DNA of 64,000 nucleotides from Candidatus Methanosphaera massiliense (GTDB lineage: Archaea; Methanobacteriota; Methanobacteria; Methanobacteriales; Methanobacteriaceae): contig NZ_JARBXM010000001.1 of NCBI RefSeq assembly GCF_028890305.1, positions 1,615,592 through 1,679,591 of the forward strand, read 5' to 3'. Of this stretch, positions 36,125 to 47,465 are shown in pieces (the first letter of the stretch is position 1; every line of letters starts with the position of its first letter). The notes beneath the pieces are model-generated. The model was given only the letters and a program-made list of their open reading frames with translations, was not told where the DNA came from and made no database searches. The position numbers and the translations under genes were made by a program.

Positions 36125-37219
36125 ATGAAAACAACTGTAAGTATAATTAAAGCAGATATTGGTAGTGTTGGTGGACACGCAGTAACACACCAAAAACTAA
36201 TGGATACATGTAATGCACATTTATCTAAAGCAAAAGAAGAAGGACTATTAACCGACTTTTATATAACCCATTGTGGTGACGACATAGATATGATTATGAC
36301 CCACACAAATGGTCCAGACAATGAAGAAGTACATAAACTAGCATTTGATACATTCATGGATGGAGCAGAAGTTGCAAAAGGTCTTAAATTATACGGTGCA
36401 GGTCAAGATTTATTAAGTGACACTTTTAGTGGAAACATAAAAGGTATGGGACCAGGAAGTGCAGAAATAGAATTTGAAGAAAGAGGAGCAGACCCTGTAT
36501 TCACATATTGTTGTGATAAAACAGAACCAGGAGCATTTAACTTACCTCTATTTAGAATGTTTGCAGACCCATTTAATACAGCAGGATTAGTAATCGACCC
36601 TAAATTACACGGTGGATTTGACTTTGAAGTATACGATGTTATAGAAAACAGGAAAGTAACAATGTCATGCCCAAGTGAAATGTATGATTTACTAGCATTA
36701 ATCGGTTCAACTGGAAGATACGTAATAAAAAGAATCTTCAGACACTCCGATGGTGAAATAGCTGCAGCAGTAAGTACTGACAGATTAAACTTAATGGCAG
36801 GAAAATACATAGGTAAAGATGACCCAGTAGCAATAGTAAGATCTCAATCCGGATTCCCAGCAGCTGGAGAAACAACTGAACCATTTGCATTCCCACACTT
36901 AGTAAGTGGATGGATGAGAGGATCACACAACGGACCTTTAATGCCTGTAGGACAAGCAGACGCAAGACCTGTAAGATTCGATGGACCTCCACGAGTAATC
37001 GGTCTTGGTTTCCAAGTATCAAACGCTAAATTAGTTGGTCCTGTAGACATGTTTGCAGATCCAGCATTTGATGAAGCAAGAACAACTGCTACTAAAGTAG
37101 CAAACTACATGAGAAGACATGGTCCATTTGAACCTCACAGATTACCTGCAGATGAAATGGAATACACAAGTCTTCCAGGTGTACTTGAAAAACTAGAAGG
37201 CAGATTCGAAGATATGTAA
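36125..37219 (+). CDS. fbp: Fructose-1,6-bisphosphate aldolase/phosphatase
   Basis: Bifunctional gluconeogenic enzyme of archaea that makes fructose-6-phosphate from triose phosphates. The 364-residue protein starts TVSIIKADIGSVGGHAVTH, with metal-binding acids and HCGDDIDMIMTH, then LYGAGQDLLSD, GMGPGSAEIEFEERGADP, FPAAGETTEPFAFPHL and PARFDGPPR-like RPVRFDGPPRVI. Length is full. CTAGGAGGT is a strong ribosome-binding site. Confidence 0.96.
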   Translation: MKTTVSIIKADIGSVGGHAVTHQKLMDTCNAHLSKAKEEGLLTDFYITHCGDDIDMIMTHTNGPDNEEVHKLAFDTFMDGAEVAKGLKLYGAGQDLLSDTFSGNIKGMGPGSAEIEFEERGADPVFTYCCDKTEPGAFNLPLFRMFADPFNTAGLVIDPKLHGGFDFEVYDVIENRKVTMSCPSEMYDLLALIGSTGRYVIKRIFRHSDGEIAAAVSTDRLNLMAGKYIGKDDPVAIVRSQSGFPAAGETTEPFAFPHLVSGWMRGSHNGPLMPVGQADARPVRFDGPPRVIGLGFQVSNAKLVGPVDMFADPAFDEARTTATKVANYMRRHGPFEPHRLPADEMEYTSLPGVLEKLEGRFEDM

Positions 37220-37638
37220 GTACATATCCAATATAACCTCCTTTTTTTAGTAATAACTATTTTCAAATAAAATTTTCCTAATTTTTAAAATACAACATTT
37301 TTATCAGAGCCATTATAACTAATTTTACATGATAAGAAAGAATTTACAAGATTATTTTACATCTATAAAAAAGTTGATGAAAATAAAAATACAACAATTA
37401 AGTTATAAAATTACATCATTTTTGTTTACAATACAACATTTTTCAAGAAAATGAAACATTATAAAAAAGAGTAATGAAACATTTCAACTGTAAATACAAC
37501 ATATTAAAAAAAGAATACAACAATGAATATATAAAAATCTAACATTCCAAATATAATACAACATTCCAACAAATGTTCTATAAAAAAAGATAATTGTTTC
37601 ATTTAAAAAAAAAATAATAAAAAAAAAGGAAATAGAGT
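37220..37638. other. Convergent gap filled by a phased repeat array
   Basis: Lies between the 3' ends of fbp and metX, so no promoter is expected. A T-run near 37243 ends fbp. The rest is dominated by the AATACAACATT-type array described separately. Confidence 0.7.
37291..37603 (+). repeat. Helically phased array of AATACAACATT elements
   Basis: Nine core units start at 37390, 37412, 37432, 37452, 37475, 37495, 37516, 37538 and 37557, steps of 19-23 bp, i.e. two turns of the helix. Units read TACAACATT, TACAACAAT, TACATCATT, TGAAACATT, TACAACATA or close variants, usually preceded by AA or AAA. A perfect copy lies upstream at 37291, weaker ones at 37326 and 37345, and an inverted one at 37595-37603. 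Spacers are not conserved. Such a layout suits a protein that binds one DNA face cooperatively. Confidence 0.75.
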
Positions 37639-39111
37639 CTATTTATCTAATAAATTAGATATATGAGCAGTAGTAATACTACCAATAACTTTATCCTCTT
37701 CATCAATAACTGGTAAACCAGATATATTATGTTCCTTCATTTTAGTAGTAATATCAAAAATTGAATCATTTTCATGACAAGTATATACATTTCTAGTCAT
37801 GATATCCTCAATATTTTCTGCATTAGTAGCTATTGCCTTGGATAAATCCCATGCTGTAACAAGTCCTACAATTTTCTCATTAGTATCTACAATAGGAATA
37901 TGTGTTTTATTACAAGTCATCATTAATTCGGCAGCTTCTTTAATATCAGCACCATCAGTTAATGTTATAACCTTATGAGACATTACATCTTTTACCCTTG
38001 CTTTTGATAAGAAATTACTGATTATGTAATTCATTTGTCCATTTTCAATTAGAAAAGCATCATGTCCATATTCAGAATTTAATCTAGAATAACTAACATC
38101 TACATTATTTGATCTGAGTGCCATTACTATATCTTCCATGTGTTCATGTGTATATAGCCAATCTGAAGTTATTGACATTATAAGCATTCTTGCTGTTATT
38201 GGTTTTAATGCTTCTTCTAATGAATTATTGTTTCTTATATCAAAATAATCTAATGCTTTTGTAAGATATAAATAACTATTTGCATCAAATCTTTGCGTGA
38301 ATGTAACTCCTTGATGTTCAAGATAACTTTCTACCTGAAATTCATTACTAAAATCATAACTAAATGTATTTTTGTCCTGTAGCCTACGACCAAATTTTTC
38401 ATACATTGATTCATTACTTAGATAAGTTATATGAGCCATCATACGTGCAACAGATAATCCTTGTTCTGGTCTTTTATCAGTATGATAATAATCACCATTA
38501 TTCCAGTTTACATCTTCTATGATAGAACGTCTTTCAACAGCATTGAATGCAATTTGTTGTGGTGTTGAATATGCACCTGATGCTATCATTATTGCATTAC
38601 GTACTATGTCTGGATAAGATATTGTCCATTGTAGTACTTGCATTCCACCCATAGATCCACCTACTACACAATATAAGTAAGGTATTTCAAGATGATCAAT
38701 TAGTTTTTTCTGTGCATGTACCATGTCTGTTATTGTAACTATAGGAAAATCAAGACCATAATAATCACCAGTGTCAGGATTTATATCAGAAGGCCCTGTT
38801 GTTCCTTTACAACTACCTATAACATTAGAGCATATTATGAAATATCTATTAGTATCTAAGGGTTTTCCCGGACCTATTATTATATTCCACCAACCAGGTT
38901 TTTTATCACCATTATGCCATCCGGCAGCATGTGCATCACCTGTTAAAGCATGACATACTAGTATTACATTGCTTTTTTCATTATTTAAAACACCGTATGT
39001 TTCATAGGCTATTGTTGGCTTTTTTAAAATATCTCCAGTTTCTAATTTTAAATCCTCATCCATATGAAAGTAATGTGTATCTACAGTTCCTAAAGATTTC
39101 TCATATGACAT
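37639..39111 (-). CDS. metX: Homoserine O-acetyltransferase with C-terminal CBS pair
   Basis: Activates homoserine with acetyl-CoA for methionine synthesis. Residues 1 to about 370 are the alpha/beta-hydrolase MetX domain: [23 protein letters not shown]-type entry, [14 protein letters not shown] with the nucleophile serine, [11 protein letters not shown] and the late GHDAFLIE histidine/aspartate. From about 375 to 490 are two CBS domains ([39 protein letters not shown]), which often bind adenosyl ligands such as SAM or AMP and could give feedback control. GGGAG precedes the ATG. metY is next upstream on the same strand. Confidence 0.94.
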
Positions 39112-41016: not shown

Positions 41017-41034
41017 ATATAACAATAGTTATAT
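41017..41034. promoter_or_regulatory. Inverted repeat ATATAAC-AATA-GTTATAT
   Basis: Perfect 7-bp arms directly upstream of a TATA-like box at 41043-41051, where a bound factor would touch the BRE/TATA region of the RHH/coiled-coil gene. Confidence 0.5.
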
Positions 41035-41081
41035 TTTAGGTAGTATATAAACGTTATGAAAAAAGACACCTAATAATCAAA

Positions 41082-41132
41082 TACAACATTCAACATTAAA
41101 TGCAACAATTAATAAAAACAACATTCAACAAA
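41082..41132 (+). repeat. TACAACATT cluster before the RHH/coiled-coil gene
   Basis: TACAACATT at 41082, TTCAACATT at 41089, TGCAACAAT at 41101, AACAACATT at 41117 and TTCAACAAA at 41124, in the likely 5' untranslated region. Same element and orientation as the array at 37.3-37.6 kb. Confidence 0.65.
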
Positions 41133-41165: not shown

Positions 41166-42233
41166 ATGACAGAAGATAAAATAGTAAGAAAAAGTATACA
41201 AGTAAAAGACAAAACATGGAATCAATTTTTAGAAAAAATAGAATCAATATATGGAACTACATACAAAAAAACAGGAGAAGCAATTGAAGTAGCACTAGAA
41301 AATTATATAAACAATGTAAATAACAATCAAGATAACACAGAAGAATTAAAAGAAACAATAAACAACTTAGAAAATAATAAGAAAGAATATGAAAAACAAA
41401 TACAACAATACAAAAACAACAATACAGCAATTCAACAAGAAATACAACAATTCAAAGAACAAGAAAAAGAAACAAAAAACAATATAACAACATACCAAGA
41501 AACAATAGACAAACAAAACAACCAATTAACTGCCAACAAAACTACTATAAAAGAACTAGAAGAAACAATAAACAATCAAAAACAAGAAATAGAACAATTA
41601 ACAAAGAATAACAACCAACTACAAGAAAATAAAATACAAGAAAAAACAACAACAGAAAATCTAACAAATAAAATAAAGGAATTAGAAACAAACATTGAAA
41701 CCTACAAAAAAACAGAAAAAACATTACAAGAAGAAAATAAAAAGCTAAATCAGGAAAATATTCAACTAAAAATGGAAAATAATAATTATATAAAAGATAG
41801 TGAAAATAAAAATGAAAAAGAAGAACTATTCCAACAAGCCATAGATGAAACCAATAAAAGAAATCAATTACTAGAAGATGAACTTGTAAATCTTAAAGAA
41901 GATAAGAAAACAAACAAAGAAGTGATTGAAGAATTAAAAAATGAAAGAAAAAAATTACGTACGGATAATAATCAGATATCTCAAACTCTAGAAGTAACAG
42001 AAGAACAATATGAAAATCAATTAATAGAATATAAGAAATTAGTTAACAAAAGAGAACATACACAGGAAGTACTTAACAAACAACAATTTGAATTAAATGA
42101 AGCATTGAAAAAACTTGAAAGATATTCCTATGCAATGGGAAAACTAGAAAATATGAGTTTAATTGATAGAATACTAAATCGTATTCCATCAGAAGTAAAA
42201 GAATTATCCGCACCAAAAGAGGATAATCAATAA
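41166..42233 (+). CDS. Ribbon-helix-helix plus long coiled-coil protein
   Basis: 355 residues from ATG 41166. The longer frame from 41100 would translate the repeat cluster into low-complexity sequence, so I reject it. Residues 1-50 fit a CopG/MetJ-type ribbon-helix-helix (strand VRKSIQVKD, helices TWNQFLEKIESIYG and KTGEAIEVALENYI). Residues about 55-315 are an almost unbroken N/Q/K/E-rich coiled coil; a short conserved-looking tail (LIDRILNRIPSEVKEL) ends it. RHH domains bind DNA as dimers. A DNA-binding, rod-forming protein is the likely reading; function unknown. Confidence 0.75.
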   Translation: MTEDKIVRKSIQVKDKTWNQFLEKIESIYGTTYKKTGEAIEVALENYINNVNNNQDNTEELKETINNLENNKKEYEKQIQQYKNNNTAIQQEIQQFKEQEKETKNNITTYQETIDKQNNQLTANKTTIKELEETINNQKQEIEQLTKNNNQLQENKIQEKTTTENLTNKIKELETNIETYKKTEKTLQEENKKLNQENIQLKMENNNYIKDSENKNEKEELFQQAIDETNKRNQLLEDELVNLKEDKKTNKEVIEELKNERKKLRTDNNQISQTLEVTEEQYENQLIEYKKLVNKREHTQEVLNKQQFELNEALKKLERYSYAMGKLENMSLIDRILNRIPSEVKELSAPKEDNQ

Positions 42234-42276: not shown

Positions 42277-44145
42277 TCAATAGAAATCATTTAAAAATAT
42301 TGTATTTAGTGGTGATACCACCCTTACTAATGCTTGAAAATTCTCTGCATGGGACAATAGAGAAATATTTCCAATCAATATCAATTTTTTTCTAGATCTT
42401 GTTATTGAAACATTTAGCTGATTCTTATCTGCTATGAATCTTTTCTGAAATTTCGTTAAAGACCCCCTAAAACTCTTACAAAAACTTATAATTATAATGT
42501 TTTTCTCTCTTCCCTGAAATCTATAAATTGTATCTGTTTCAATATTATACTCCTGTTTTTGTAGTATCTTTTGTATGTATAGTTTTTGTTTTCTATATGG
42601 CGTTATTATACCTATTTCCTCTTCAGAAATATTATTCGATATTAATGTTTTTATTAAGTTTAATATTAGTTCAACTTCATATTTATTACAACATCCATTA
42701 GATTTCTGTGTTTCATCATAATTCATATTAGAAGTATCTATAAATGTTATTGGATCTTCATTTAATAGAATATTATCCTGTTTTTTTAAAATAATTCTCT
42801 GATTAGCATTGGTCTCATTTGTTTTTAATCTACCATTATAATAAAGTTTACTTGCTATATCGGATATTTCATGATTCATTCTATATTGAATATTTAGGAA
42901 CGTATAATTATCAGGATATTTTTCTATAAGTAGATTAAATATAGATTTATTTAATGAGGGTATTGTATTATTATTAGTTATTGGTTGTAACTGTTTGTTA
43001 TCTCCTATTAATATAAATTTATTAGTTTTCATCAGGGGTATTAACGAAAGATATACGGGTACTTGGCTTGCCTCATCCATTATCATATAATCAAATTCTA
43101 TGTCCTTAGTTAAGTAACTTGATGATGAGAGTACTGTTGAAGCTATTATAGGTATGGTCTTGAGTAATTTGTTTTGTATAGCTTCCTTTATTTCTTGAAT
43201 TTCGGAGTTTAACTCAGTAATCTTTTGCTCGTAATTCTTATTCTGAGTTTCTTTAATATTTTTATGTATGATGTATTCAGTATTCTTAGTTCTTGTTATT
43301 TTCTGTATTATTTTTGATAATAGTGATTCTTCTATTTTTATATTTGGTTGCTGTATTACATCTTGTCTTTGTATACTTCTTTTTACTTCCTGTAACTCTT
43401 TTTTTCTTTTTAATATCTCTTTGTATTGTTTATCTTGTTTTATTTGATTATTTATAGTGTATTTCTTTGATGTATCCTGTATTTTTGAAGTATTTCCTAT
43501 TCTTAATATATCTTCTTGTGGTATATCATCTAATTTTTCTAGGATGTTATCTAAAGCTATATGAGTATGTGTTGTTATTAGTATCTTCATTCCTTGTTTG
43601 TATAGTTGTTTAATTATTTCTATTATTGTATGCGTTTTTCCTGTTCCAGGTGGTCCTTGTATTATATGGAATTTGTTTGCATTTAATGATCTTTGTACTG
43701 CTAATTCCTGGTTTTTGTTAAGATTTTGAATGTTGTATTCTTTATTCTGAAATGTTGTATTTGTCTTATATACTATTGTATTTAATGTTTCTTTGTTGGA
43801 ATTATTTATTTTATCATCTTCTATGGATGATTCTAATTCATGTAACTTTTTAATGATTATATCTTGCTGTATATTATGTAGTTTTACTTCTTGATTTGTA
43901 TGGAATTCATGTTTTTCTTGTAGTTTTATTGTAATATTCTTATTTCTATTCTTGATTATTGTTCCTTTGATTCTATTTAATTCTATTTGTGTATTTACTT
44001 TTAGTGCTGTAGGATTATTTAAGGATATTTCTATAATATTATCCTGTATTTTATTTATTTGAGCTTTTTGAGTTTGATTATCTTGTTGTTCTCTTTTTAT
44101 TAATTGTTTTAATTGATACGTTAATTGAGTATATTTTTTATTCAT
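42277..44145 (-). CDS. Superfamily 1 helicase (DNA2/UPF1/IGHMBP2-like)
   Basis: 622 residues. An N-terminal beta-rich stalk-like part (1-110) precedes motif I GPPGTGKT at 164-171, motif Ia TTHTHIALDN, a charged insertion (about 210-320), motif II DEASQ, motif III GDNKQLQP, IV QYRMNHEISDIASKLYYNG, V and VI (TIYRFQGREKNIIIISF; NVSITRSRKKLILIG). ATP-driven unwinding of DNA or RNA 5'-3' is known for the family. It converges with the RHH/coiled-coil gene, 43 bases between stops. No nuclease domain is seen. Confidence 0.92.
   Translation of the reverse strand: MNKKYTQLTYQLKQLIKREQQDNQTQKAQINKIQDNIIEISLNNPTALKVNTQIELNRIKGTIIKNRNKNITIKLQEKHEFHTNQEVKLHNIQQDIIIKKLHELESSIEDDKINNSNKETLNTIVYKTNTTFQNKEYNIQNLNKNQELAVQRSLNANKFHIIQGPPGTGKTHTIIEIIKQLYKQGMKILITTHTHIALDNILEKLDDIPQEDILRIGNTSKIQDTSKKYTINNQIKQDKQYKEILKRKKELQEVKRSIQRQDVIQQPNIKIEESLLSKIIQKITRTKNTEYIIHKNIKETQNKNYEQKITELNSEIQEIKEAIQNKLLKTIPIIASTVLSSSSYLTKDIEFDYMIMDEASQVPVYLSLIPLMKTNKFILIGDNKQLQPITNNNTIPSLNKSIFNLLIEKYPDNYTFLNIQYRMNHEISDIASKLYYNGRLKTNETNANQRIILKKQDNILLNEDPITFIDTSNMNYDETQKSNGCCNKYEVELILNLIKTLISNNISEEEIGIITPYRKQKLYIQKILQKQEYNIETDTIYRFQGREKNIIIISFCKSFRGSLTKFQKRFIADKNQLNVSITRSRKKLILIGNISLLSHAENFQALVRVVSPLNTIFLNDFY
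43729..43800 (-). repeat. Phased AATGTTGTA copies inside the helicase gene
   Basis: AATGTTGTA at 43729 and 43751, ACTATTGTA at 43772 and TTTGTTGGA at 43792, steps of 22, 21 and 20 bp. This is the reverse complement of the TACAACATT element, inside coding sequence around helicase residues 116-139. Could be chance, since it encodes Tyr-Asn-Ile and Asn-Thr-Thr codons. Confidence 0.4.
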
Positions 44146-44813
44146 AATAAGTTATTACTATTTATAGTAATTTGTATTAATAATTATTGTGATATAACAA
44201 TTAAAAAAAATAGTTTTAATATGTGTTAGAAAAATGAATATAAAACATGTTAATTGTTCTATACTCATTTTCCATAGGATATAATTTTCTACTAACCTAC
44301 ATTAGTAGATATTTGAAATATATTATTTCATAACATCTATAATATAATAGACTAAAATATTTTTAGATATTAAAAATTAAATTTAAGTTATTTTTATAAA
44401 TTTAACATAATATCCAATTGTTTAATTTTTTATAATTAAACAAATAATATTTTATTTGAAGTATATAATAAATTTTTTATCAAAAACTCTAATAATTAAC
44501 TGAAAATAAATTCAAAATATATTATTTTAAATATTATTTTTACCTGTATAGAGCTTCATACTTATTATAATAAGATTATATGATATTTAATCTAATTTAG
44601 AGCTTTTTTATGGAAATGTTGAAATTTATAAATATTCATAACACAATGTTGTAATCCCTCATGAAATGTTGTATTCTCGAATAGTAAATGTTGTAATTCA
44701 AAACTTTGTTAGAATTACTATATTAATAATATTATGTTGGAAAAATAACAATATACTAATATATTTATTTTCATAAAGTAGTTAATAAGTAGAATCATAA
44801 GGAGTATTTTTTC
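44146..44813. other. Divergent gap, helicase and 86-aa coiled-coil gene
   Basis: About 670 very AT-rich bases. Must carry both promoters. Its right part has the third phased cluster (44615-44714). No gene seen. Confidence 0.6.
44615..44714 (-). repeat. Phased AATGTTGTA cluster (inverted orientation)
   Basis: AATGTTGAA at 44615; exact AATGTTGTA at 44645, 44665 and 44687; a weak TTTGTTAGA at 44706. Steps of 20, 22 and 19 bp in the last four. On the minus strand the units read ATTACAACATT or AATACAACATT, as in the 37-kb array. Lies 100-200 bases before the 86-aa gene. Confidence 0.7.
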
Positions 44814-45074
44814 ATGAGTGACGAAAATAGCATTGAAAATCTTGAAAAAAGAATTAAGATACTAGAAAATGAATTAAATGAAGAAAAATTAAACTATAAA
44901 AAGCAGGCAATGGAAATAGGTAAATTTGTTTTTCAAAATGAAGATTATGAATATGAAATAAAAAAGTTAAAAGAAGAAAATAAAAAACTAAAAAAAGAAA
45001 ATGCTGAGTTAAATGCATTTAAACAGGAAGTAGAATCCTCAACAAGTTGGAAGTTAAAATCAATACTAAAATGA
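44814..45074 (+). CDS. Small coiled-coil protein, 86 residues
   Basis: Almost wholly heptad coiled coil (residues 5-70; LEKRIKILENELNEEK, LKEENKKLKKENAELN), ending SSTSWKLKSILK. A similar S-x-SWKL tail often closes coiled-coil parts of glycosyltransferases, so it might be a fragment of such a protein or partner one; uncertain. AAGGAG precedes the ATG. The stop lies 2 bases before the convergent nitroreductase stop. Confidence 0.7.
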   Translation: MSDENSIENLEKRIKILENELNEEKLNYKKQAMEIGKFVFQNEDYEYEIKKLKEENKKLKKENAELNAFKQEVESSTSWKLKSILK

Positions 45075-45076
45075 GT

Positions 45077-45631
45077 TTATAATAACTCATCTAAATTAAT
45101 TACATAATCTTCCTTTCTAGGATTTTCAACAGGTTCAAAGTCATCTGCAGGATATCCTAATATCACATGACCAATACCAATATAATTATCTGGAATATTC
45201 CATACTTTAAGTAATTCCTTACCTTGAAGACTTTCTATTTCTTCACAAGCTCTATGAATCCAACATGCTCCAACACCTATTGCATGAGCAGCATTAAGCA
45301 TATTACCTATTACTAAACTACCATCTTCAACACATGTAGATATATTACTATCTGCTAATACTATAATTAATGTAGATGCCCCATAAAATGGATCAACATC
45401 ACCCATCTGGTCAAGTAATTCACTAGGGAAATAAGATTTATTCCATTCACCAATTCTTTCTATAATATCTTTTCTTTGAGTTACTAGTATTATTGGCGAT
45501 TGTTTATTTCCTCCTGTAGGTGCATATGTACCTGCTTCAATAATTTTTTCTAAGTCTTCTTTACTAACAGGTTCATCTTTAAATTTTCTTACACTACGTC
45601 TTGTTTTTAAATCATCTAATGTTGATTCCAT
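45077..45631 (-). CDS. Nitroreductase-family flavoprotein
   Basis: FMN-dependent NAD(P)H oxidoreductase, about 184 residues from ATG 45631 (TTG 45640 is too close to the AGGA site). Marks: LKTRRSVRKFKDEPV, YAPTGGNKQSP, GSLVIGNMLNAAHAIGVGACWI, IGIGHVILGYP. Substrate unknown. Stands between the small coiled-coil gene and two regulators on the same strand. Confidence 0.9.
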   Translation of the reverse strand: MESTLDDLKTRRSVRKFKDEPVSKEDLEKIIEAGTYAPTGGNKQSPIILVTQRKDIIERIGEWNKSYFPSELLDQMGDVDPFYGASTLIIVLADSNISTCVEDGSLVIGNMLNAAHAIGVGACWIHRACEEIESLQGKELLKVWNIPDNYIGIGHVILGYPADDFEPVENPRKEDYVINLDELL

Positions 45632-45770
45632 AAATACCAAATTTCCTAATTGTTTATTCTATTAATTTATATTTATTTTATACTACTTATTTTTTATTTA
45701 AAATGTTATTATTATAAAACTAGATAAGATTATAAATTTTTTTATAAAAAAAGAGAAATAAGATAATGAA

Positions 45771-46607: not shown

Positions 46608-47465
46608 CTATAAATCATTATGTTTTCTTACTAATTCTTTTATATCAATATAGCCTTCTTTAAGAACTTCAAATTCTCGGAATACTTGAATACCCCAGGC
46701 TCTTGCACTTGAATCCTCTGACCGTAGAACACAATTTTTATTAAAATTTCCTTCTTTTCTTACTAAACCCACTACTATTTCATGTTCAGATACTACTAAT
46801 ACTATTCTTAATGGCGTTTCACGTAATGGTTTAATATTAAAGCGTATATTTTTTAAGGGAATATCTGTTAGGTATTCATATGCATGTTTTATAATGTATT
46901 GTGCAAATTCTAAGGGTACTATAACCTCAAAATCTGATTCTTGATTCATCATGAATTGAATCATACCCGAACAATTTGGATGTAAATATATACATATAGA
47001 CTTTACTCTACCTTTTCTCATCATAGTCTCTTCTATTGTCTCAGTAGCAAGGTAAGGATTAATATTATTTGCTTGTATTAATTCAATATTTTTTATATAA
47101 GGTAATGTTCCTATTGCCTGTAAGTCATCATTGACTACTATATGATTATTTAAGAATTCATCATATTCATGAATAAATTCAAGGTTATTATTTAAGTAGA
47201 ATATATTTAACAATTGTAAACGAGTATGTGTTTTCAACTGATATTCATTATCCTCCTTAGTTACATAGTCTAATTCAACTAATTTCTTCAAATTACTAGT
47301 TATTGAACTATATTTTAAATCTGTGATTTCATGTATTTCACTGACTGTTGCTGGCGCATCATATAGACAAGTTAATATTTGAAATCTTACTTTTGAGTTT
47401 GTTAGAAATTTTAATTCATCTTTGATTTCATTAAAATATAATTTATCTTCCATCATCACACACAT
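46608..47465 (-). CDS. FilR1-like winged-helix regulator, copy 2
   Basis: 285 residues with the same plan as the downstream gene: winged helix (LTNSKVRFQILTCLYDAPATVSEIHEITDLKYSSITSNLKKLVELDYV) and a C-terminal DUF1724-like half (DFEVIVPLEFAQYIIKHAYEYL, PLRIVLVVSEHEIVVGLVRKEG) that probably senses a ligand. The two share little beyond the fold, so the duplication is old. GAGGGGG lies 7 bases before the ATG. First gene of the pair. Confidence 0.8.
   Translation of the reverse strand: MCVMMEDKLYFNEIKDELKFLTNSKVRFQILTCLYDAPATVSEIHEITDLKYSSITSNLKKLVELDYVTKEDNEYQLKTHTRLQLLNIFYLNNNLEFIHEYDEFLNNHIVVNDDLQAIGTLPYIKNIELIQANNINPYLATETIEETMMRKGRVKSICIYLHPNCSGMIQFMMNQESDFEVIVPLEFAQYIIKHAYEYLTDIPLKNIRFNIKPLRETPLRIVLVVSEHEIVVGLVRKEGNFNKNCVLRSEDSSARAWGIQVFREFEVLKEGYIDIKELVRKHNDL

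Follow-up and report, generated by a model that had tools for sequence, protein, structure and literature searches.

A phased repeat array beside a probable ribbon-helix-helix protein in Methanosphaera, and its possible role in DNA tethering or segregation

Results

The array and its setting

The window analysed in this study was a 64-kb (64,000-nucleotide) stretch of the Candidatus Methanosphaera massiliense genome (G000, 1.79 Mb). Within it, the gap at 37220-37638 is flanked by the 3' ends of two convergent genes. The FBPase gene (36125..37219, + strand) forms its left edge, and a gene for an alpha/beta-hydrolase with CBS domains (37639..39111, - strand), whose product we take to be homoserine O-acetyltransferase (HAT), forms its right edge. 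Ten copies of a short core were found in the gap, all on the + strand, starting at 37289, 37388, 37410, 37430, 37450, 37473, 37493, 37514, 37536 and 37555 (steps of 99, 22, 20, 20, 23, 20, 21, 22 and 19 bp). The first is an isolated exact core, AATACAACATT (37289..37299), which lies 99 bp ahead of the rest. The other nine make up the main phased array (37388..37565, + strand, consensus AAWNCAWCATW), identified from the sequence and from a cross-species profile chain, with a mean step of 20.9 bp (range 19-23).

The array that an earlier note on this DNA had described, of nine cores in one orientation at 19-23 bp (mean about 21) between two convergent gene ends, was confirmed when the sequence was re-read. 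The span given there, 37291..37603, starts at what is the isolated core, and the phased run itself is confined to 37388-37565. A CRISPR locus was rejected, as the cores are 11 bp and the spacers about 10 bp long and no cas gene was present among seven neighbouring proteins scanned; CRISPR repeats are about 23-37 bp, in agreement with the earlier judgement that these repeats are too short. A coding repeat was rejected because the steps vary and do not keep to multiples of 3.

Clustering, phasing and background

In the window, 111 matches to the 11-mer with up to two mismatches were counted, the expectation being 96 ± 10, and 9 of 100 shuffles reached that number. Genome-wide, with up to one mismatch, 254 matches were counted against 161 for the reversed pattern. 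Frequency was therefore discarded as evidence on its own, the window count being hardly above that of the shuffles; what sets the array apart is its clustering and phasing. To assess these, 81 sites from the corresponding gap in other species, without G000, were made into a profile, and sites were linked into scored chains where their steps deviated by at most 1.7 bp from one to four helical turns. The array chain scored 58.7, compared with a maximum of 20.4 in 400 kb of G000 (20 evenly spaced stretches), 20.1 in simulated 64-kb sequences (n = 20) and 24.4 in simulated gaps of the same dinucleotide make-up (n = 2000), none of which reached 58.7. Against shuffled DNA, the comparison proposed in the earlier note, the motif was thus ordinary in frequency and distinct in clustering and phase.

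The four highest chains of the window (58.7, 40.5, 31.6 and 22.6) all lay within 37.4-44.7 kb, around a gene at 41166-42233; a fifth, scoring 20.6, was found outside the locus at 47079-47165. Random placement of the nine profile-scored G000 sites (threshold 6, which includes 37289 and misses 37536) gave equal phasing in only 11 of 20000 trials. For steps of up to 64 bp pooled from six species (n = 71, with G004 left out as a near copy of G007), R was 0.68 near 10.25-10.45 bp. Orientation was similarly biased, the forward and reverse cores in the gap numbering 9 and 0 in G000, 23 and 0 in G007, 20 and 5 in G017, 9 and 0 in G018, 19 and 1 in G005, 22 and 3 in G004, and 2 and 2 in G011.

Pattern searches were less uniform. 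A strict pattern (exact core, 8-14 bases, TACANCA) matched twice in the G000 genome, both times at this locus. A looser one gave 11 matches against 8 for the reversed control, two of the 11 at this locus, and a TACAACA triple pattern gave three, two of them here, against one for its reversed control. The first cluster listing, based on regular expressions, returned many unphased clusters too, and an expectation-maximisation motif search collapsed to background.

Neutral AT-rich repeats, produced by slippage or as decayed duplications and lacking a binder, would fit a region that is very AT-rich and in which the 11-mer is only slightly over-represented, and repeats at 17-18 bp upstream in G011 do resemble recent tandem copies. 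However, the spacers are unconserved, as the earlier note had stated, yet the cores, their strand and their helical phase are kept over several species. The background and the simulations score far lower, and co-occurrence with one gene (see below) would not be expected of neutral repeats. This explanation is disfavoured and is considered highly improbable.

The 41166-42233 protein

The gene at 41166..42233 (+ strand, with an open frame that could begin at 41100) lies 3.6 kb from the array and is not adjacent to it; its product is the proposed array binder. A profile search with the N-terminal 50 residues of 16 relatives returned a single PDB match below E 1, the ribbon-helix-helix (RHH) domain of NikR (2bj1); this match is weak (E 0.18) and in register. 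No Pfam family, RHH or other, fits. The N-terminus is a probable RHH domain on this basis. A glutamine (Q12) in the predicted DNA-facing strand is invariant in eight orthologues and is replaced by lysine in all nine core paralogues aligned. Residues 56-315 have a hydrophobic period of 3.50, which is coiled-coil-like. The conserved tail, MSLIDRILNRIP, stands out by its hydrophobic moment over 11 residues, which no other part of the protein exceeds (0.81-0.82; 0.45-0.83 across ten family tails), with a mean hydrophobicity of only about 0.

Five of six public relatives were named Methanosphaera (e.g. rholeuAM74, rholeuAM130, SIG23 and SIG25), and the closest, 99% identical, was from the RUG12825 record of an uncultured Methanobacteriaceae archaeon. 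Comparison with NCBIfam gave only matches far under the cut-offs, mostly to coiled-coil proteins. The window protein had no match in a plasmid collection, and only a more distant relative was found on a plasmid. A viral origin was rejected, as searches for the tail in viral contigs and for the window protein in phages returned no relatives.

No NTPase partner was identified next to the gene; a scan of seven window proteins turned up products of metabolic genes, a helicase and two FilR1-type regulators. The helicase gene (AAA_11/AAA_12; 42277..44145, - strand) adjoins the RHH gene and was not counted in the system because it is also found in species without the RHH gene. Further along, an 86-aa coiled-coil-like gene at 44814-45074 adjoins the gene at 45077-45640, an order that was matched in several species.

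Distribution of the gene and the array

Twenty genomes of the genus were searched, and a match with E below 1e-50 was taken as a close relative. The 41166-42233 product had a close relative in eight of them (G000, G002, G004, G005, G007, G011, G017 and G018), most of the others having weaker paralogue matches only; FBPase was found in 18 of the 20. As far as the contigs reach, the gene order was FBPase, gap, HAT, OAHS, RHH gene and helicase. In G003, G006, G010, G012 and G019 the RHH gene was missing and the helicase came next after OAHS, whereas G016 had neither of the two nearby. The gap measured 221-1720 bp in genomes with the gene and 79-208 bp in those without it, except in G010 (1011 bp, containing an alpha/beta-hydrolase gene) and G001 (10.7 kb); in G013 no HAT match was present in the stretch. 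In G018 the gap was interrupted by a transposase-like gene that is split in two, with matches to HTH and DDE_3 (L058 14276-15591).

The array was present in all eight genomes with the gene, with scores of 51.9-85.6. It was detected in none of the eight gene-less regions examined (G001, G003, G006, G010, G012, G013, G016 and G019, a set that leaves out G008, G009, G014 and G015), where no chain exceeded 20.4. As the profile had been trained on six array species, it was rebuilt with each species left out in turn (G004 and G007 together). The scores were then 47.7 for G004, 54.5 for G007, 70.1 for G005, 56.9 for G017, 78.9 for G018 and 71.3 for G011, while the own-genome background stayed at or below 21.1 and the gene-less regions at or below 20.5. 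In G011, whose FBPase gap was without an array, one scoring 72.3 was found ahead of the helicase gene instead, at a site that also adjoins the RHH gene, and further repeats preceded the RHH gene. Arrays are thus carried by the same-species genome G002 and by six further species, contrary to the absence of conservation between strains that the earlier note had named as refuting its reading.

On a tree of four neighbouring proteins, a Fitch count gave at least four state changes between presence and absence. G000 was sister to the gene-less G003 (support 82), and G011 grouped with the gene-less G001 and G012 (support 64); some supports were low, and the data for G004, G005, G006, G011 and G013 were partial. 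The system is dispensable, since the close relatives G003 and G016 lack it. The joint presence and absence of gene and array, the probable RHH domain (weak NikR match) and the occurrence of a relative beside 11-bp iterons on a plasmid (see below) all point to the same protein that the earlier note had named as a candidate binder, and the array very probably belongs to it.

A conserved 47-aa frame (MKYN...KINND.I..KI/M) was noticed at the end of the gap in G007 (L056 5819-5962) and also in G004, G005 and G017. It is preceded by a TATA-like stretch about 23-31 bp before the ATG, and motif cores run through it. It was not found in the gaps of G000, G011 and G018.

Further core sites around the gene

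A second non-coding array of four cores (44615..44698, - strand, steps of 22, 20 and 30, score 40.5) lies upstream of the helicase gene. Phased cores also occur inside the SF1-type helicase gene itself (43729..43795, - strand, score 31.6), and weaker ones inside the RHH gene (41398..41494, + strand, score 22.6). The 21-bp spacing of this last chain may only reflect coiled-coil heptads, and it was not relied on because such heptads alone give 21-bp steps. The window sites left of the RHH-helicase pair are on the + strand and those right of it on the - strand, so that all point at the pair; the arrays of G018 and G011 likewise point towards it.

Cores also lie ahead of the RHH gene, between its start and a TATA-like box recognised by eye (41080..41125, + strand), including one pair 12 bp apart. 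A similar pair is found 78-80 bp before the start in G000, G004, G007 and G017, and 64 bp before it in G005. Alone, the start-proximal pair of G000 scored 15.7, which is within background, and those of the other four species 23.7-28.4. We propose 41080-41125 as a candidate autoregulatory site. Upstream of the TATA-like box is a palindrome-like sequence, ATAACAATAGTTAT (41019..41032), which is perfect as ATAACAATTGTTAT in G004, G005 and G007 and was looked for in G017 without being found; it is possibly the operator of another regulator.

These sites raise the alternative that the cores are operator or silencer sites. The protein would then be an unusual RHH repressor that controls itself and nearby genes (the helicase, FBPase and methionine-pathway genes) and takes no part in segregation. 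Repression is a frequent function of RHH proteins, and in five species cores precede the point where the RHH gene starts, in four of them after a TATA-like box recognised by eye. The arrays that precede the helicase gene in G000 and in G011 agree with this reading, as do the significant repeats that other subfamilies carry directly upstream of their own genes, and in four other species it is kept alive by the small frame with its own TATA-like box in the gap. A precedent is KfrA, an autorepressor with direct repeats over its promoter (PMC7783346). However, the largest array of the window sits between two gene 3' ends, and the plasmid member described below has 36 cores in 660 bp. Arrays of 9-23 cores also exceed ordinary operators. 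Control of transcription as the sole function is rather unlikely on balance.

A relative on plasmid pNP174

One of the family members preceded by ATCTTACC repeats, annotated as hypothetical, is encoded on pNP174, a 174,118-bp circular plasmid of Methanosphaera sp. ISO3-F5. In the 1.27 kb upstream of it, 39 forward and 3 reverse cores were counted. Thirty-six lie within 660 bp, and 27 of these form two runs (8 and 19), mostly with 11-bp steps. The pattern TCTTACC-N4-TCTTACC occurred 14 times in the pNP174-bearing genome, every time upstream of the plasmid member, and was absent from G000 and G016.

Partners of known partition systems were looked for. PF13614 (ParA-type) had five matches in G000, none of them in the window, and five in G010, where every match fell on C1 and the plasmid contig (C2) had none. 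PF06723 (actin-like) had no match on the G010 plasmid contig and one in G000, far away, in a 626-aa frame. Among at least 139 pNP174 features listed, none was named ParA or ParM, and several were given as AAA or ATP-binding proteins with no further specification. Many TGTAGCAC and TGTGCTACA repeats, often 18-20 bp apart, were also seen to either side of the RHH gene of the plasmid (L082 3464-7670 and 11143-11699); these may be the plasmid origin or sites of another protein.

The presence of iterons together with separate TGTAGCAC repeats on pNP174 would suit the possibility that the cores are replication iterons at a second origin or at a site of replication control, in which case the RHH protein would act as an initiator or regulate copy number. 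A second Cdc6-like gene located 35-53 kb from the FBPase locus in G000 (C1:1599575, where the match is below the family cut-off), G007, G010 and G016 would suit it as well. Against this, the array is missing in G010, G012, G016 and G019, which keep the second Cdc6-like gene, and the seven window proteins scanned included no evident replication gene save the helicase, which is also present in array-less species. A replication role for the array is accordingly regarded as very unlikely. A replication terminus site was rejected, since the distance to the best Cdc6 gene was not consistently half a genome.

The protein family and its upstream repeats

Of 119 genomes in the taxonomic family, 23 contained members detected by a profile of the tail, and 18 of these belong to this genus; three members are encoded in the source genome. 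Several subfamilies share the same plan, and some members in other genera have a different N-terminus. Those at L118-L121 carry the same C-terminal tail behind a different N-terminus that, by eye, is perhaps AbrB-like. From such comparisons the tail seems to be a module common to different DNA-binding heads.

Several members bear other repeats upstream. The core paralogue genes (L073-L081) are preceded by AAA[AT]CA repeats at 7-, 14- and 21-bp steps, strongly biased to one strand; a count for eight paralogues gave 82 forward against 12 reverse, and no 10.45-bp phase (R 0.12). Repeats of ATCTTACC precede the G009 and G010 members, nearly all on one strand. TGTACAC repeats precede the G000, G003 and G016 members, and AATATTAC repeats those of G005, G009 and G017, in both cases on both strands. 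Within one subfamily the repeats are alike across species.

A generic test of repeats in the 400 bp upstream was significant (at most 1 of 100 simulations) for 12 of 30 members and not for 18; it was not significant for six of seven orthologues of the window gene and seven of eight core paralogues. Of 40 controls, drawn from 95 that passed a low-GC filter, one passed at 1 of 50 simulations. The motifs of the specificity table were chosen by eye from the same regions, and only the agreement between species is informative. The table was not cleanly diagonal: when scored with the S1 pattern itself, S1 reached only 0-1 at the G018 gap and upstream in G011, S1 gaps also scored 3-6 with the S2 pattern in four species, and S3 regions scored 5-6 with the S6 pattern. 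S7 had 11 forward matches to the S2 pattern in G016. In G003, S7 scored two forward and two reverse. The repeats of S4, S5 and S6 were on both strands. A fixed pattern meant for the TGTACAC repeats of three genomes gave one match in four genomes.

Discussion

The earlier note had likened the layout to centromere-like or iteron arrays to which a protein binds cooperatively along one helix face. This reading is supported: a phase of about 10.4 bp and an orientation on one strand recur in other species. We infer binding, oligomerisation, tethering and segregation as the steps of the following model. The phased cores would be occupied along one DNA face by RHH dimers. Through their coiled coils, dimers bound at the main array, at 41.1 kb and at 44.6 kb would come together in a single nucleoprotein complex, which the tails, brought close to each other on the array, would then dock on the membrane or on a shared partner. 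The chromosomal locus would thereby be tethered or segregated by a centromere-like, one-protein system, and the cores before the gene start would let the protein repress its own gene. Such a role in DNA tethering or segregation is the reading that we favour with some reserve.

A broader proposal is offered more tentatively, as a conjecture that may well prove wrong. The chromosomes and plasmids of Methanosphaera may harbour a family of centromere or tether systems that each consist of one protein and work without an NTPase. In every such protein an RHH reader would recognise its own array and would be joined by a coiled coil, as spacer, to an amphipathic tail of a kind common to the family, through which all would attach to one cellular partner. 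Several orthogonal systems could then coexist in a cell, like plasmid incompatibility groups, and be gained and lost together with their arrays.

To our knowledge, the placement and division of chromosomes and large plasmids in methanogenic archaea of the gut and rumen are largely unknown. If the array and its protein do serve segregation or tethering, then a plan of reader, coiled coil and amphipathic tail has arisen in archaea, or has spread among them, on the basis of another DNA-binding fold. The pair would also supply a candidate for the maintenance of pNP174 in the absence of a PF13614 ParA, and stable vectors for use in these archaea could be derived from it. The matched pairs of protein and site are directly testable. 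No published description of this family was found in the titles and abstract openings of the open-licence literature on Methanosphaera or archaeal partition, and the available part of PMC4158269 does not mention Methanosphaera.

Among known systems, chromosomal parS sites cluster near the replication origin; the array locus may differ from them, as it lies far from the best Cdc6 match (586775 in G000, compared with about 1653000 for the array); a weaker Cdc6 match is located about 52 kb from the array. The archaeal SegAB system consists of an RHH-type binder, SegB, encoded next to a ParA-type ATPase, SegA. The window protein is similarly archaeal and probably of RHH type, whereas no ParA-type neighbour was seen here. 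Omega is an RHH centromere binder that recognises 7-bp heptads, and both omega and ParG are small, are paired with a ParA ATPase and are not known to have a coiled coil or amphipathic tail. The likeness to them lies in a probable RHH protein on short repeats and in the 7-bp upstream steps of the core paralogues. Type Ib systems such as that of ParG are described as having RHH centromere binders (PMC5016525).

KfrA of plasmid RA3 is a coiled-coil protein that aids plasmid maintenance, and the window protein resembles it in its predicted DNA-binding N-terminus and long predicted alpha-helical coiled coil, as well as in direct repeats at the presumed promoter. Unlike the window protein, KfrA has an HTH domain, five 9-bp promoter repeats and contacts with the plasmid ParA and ParB (PMC7783346).

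In ParR-parC systems of type II, RHH dimers and tails assemble on iterons (PMC5016525). A C-terminal tail and helically spaced repeats are shared with the window protein, whose putative RHH N-terminus would be a further likeness, and the pNP174 member has 11-bp iterons directly upstream of its gene. The differences are the long coiled coil between the two ends, the neighbourhood, where no actin-like ParM was found among the seven proteins scanned, and the position and step of the array, which is 3.6 kb off with steps of about 21 bp, in contrast to iterons of 10-11 bp directly upstream.

RocS of Streptococcus pneumoniae and Par of pSK1 combine a DNA-binding N-terminus, a coiled coil and a C-terminal amphipathic helix; in RocS, oligomerisation is needed before this helix holds the membrane, and pSK1 Par has been called a single-protein partition system (PMC11500499). 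The same three-part plan is predicted for the window protein, with a putative amphipathic tail after the coiled coil. RocS and pSK1 Par are bacterial and have a MerR-type winged helix, whereas the window protein is archaeal with a probable RHH domain. DUF536 (PF04394) was not found in 14 tails at E up to 10, a search in which the HMMER filters drop most weak matches, nor in the whole window protein at E up to 1. By the tests made, the window protein appears to be a member of none of these families, and would work in the manner of RocS, pSK1 Par, ParR-parC and KfrA.
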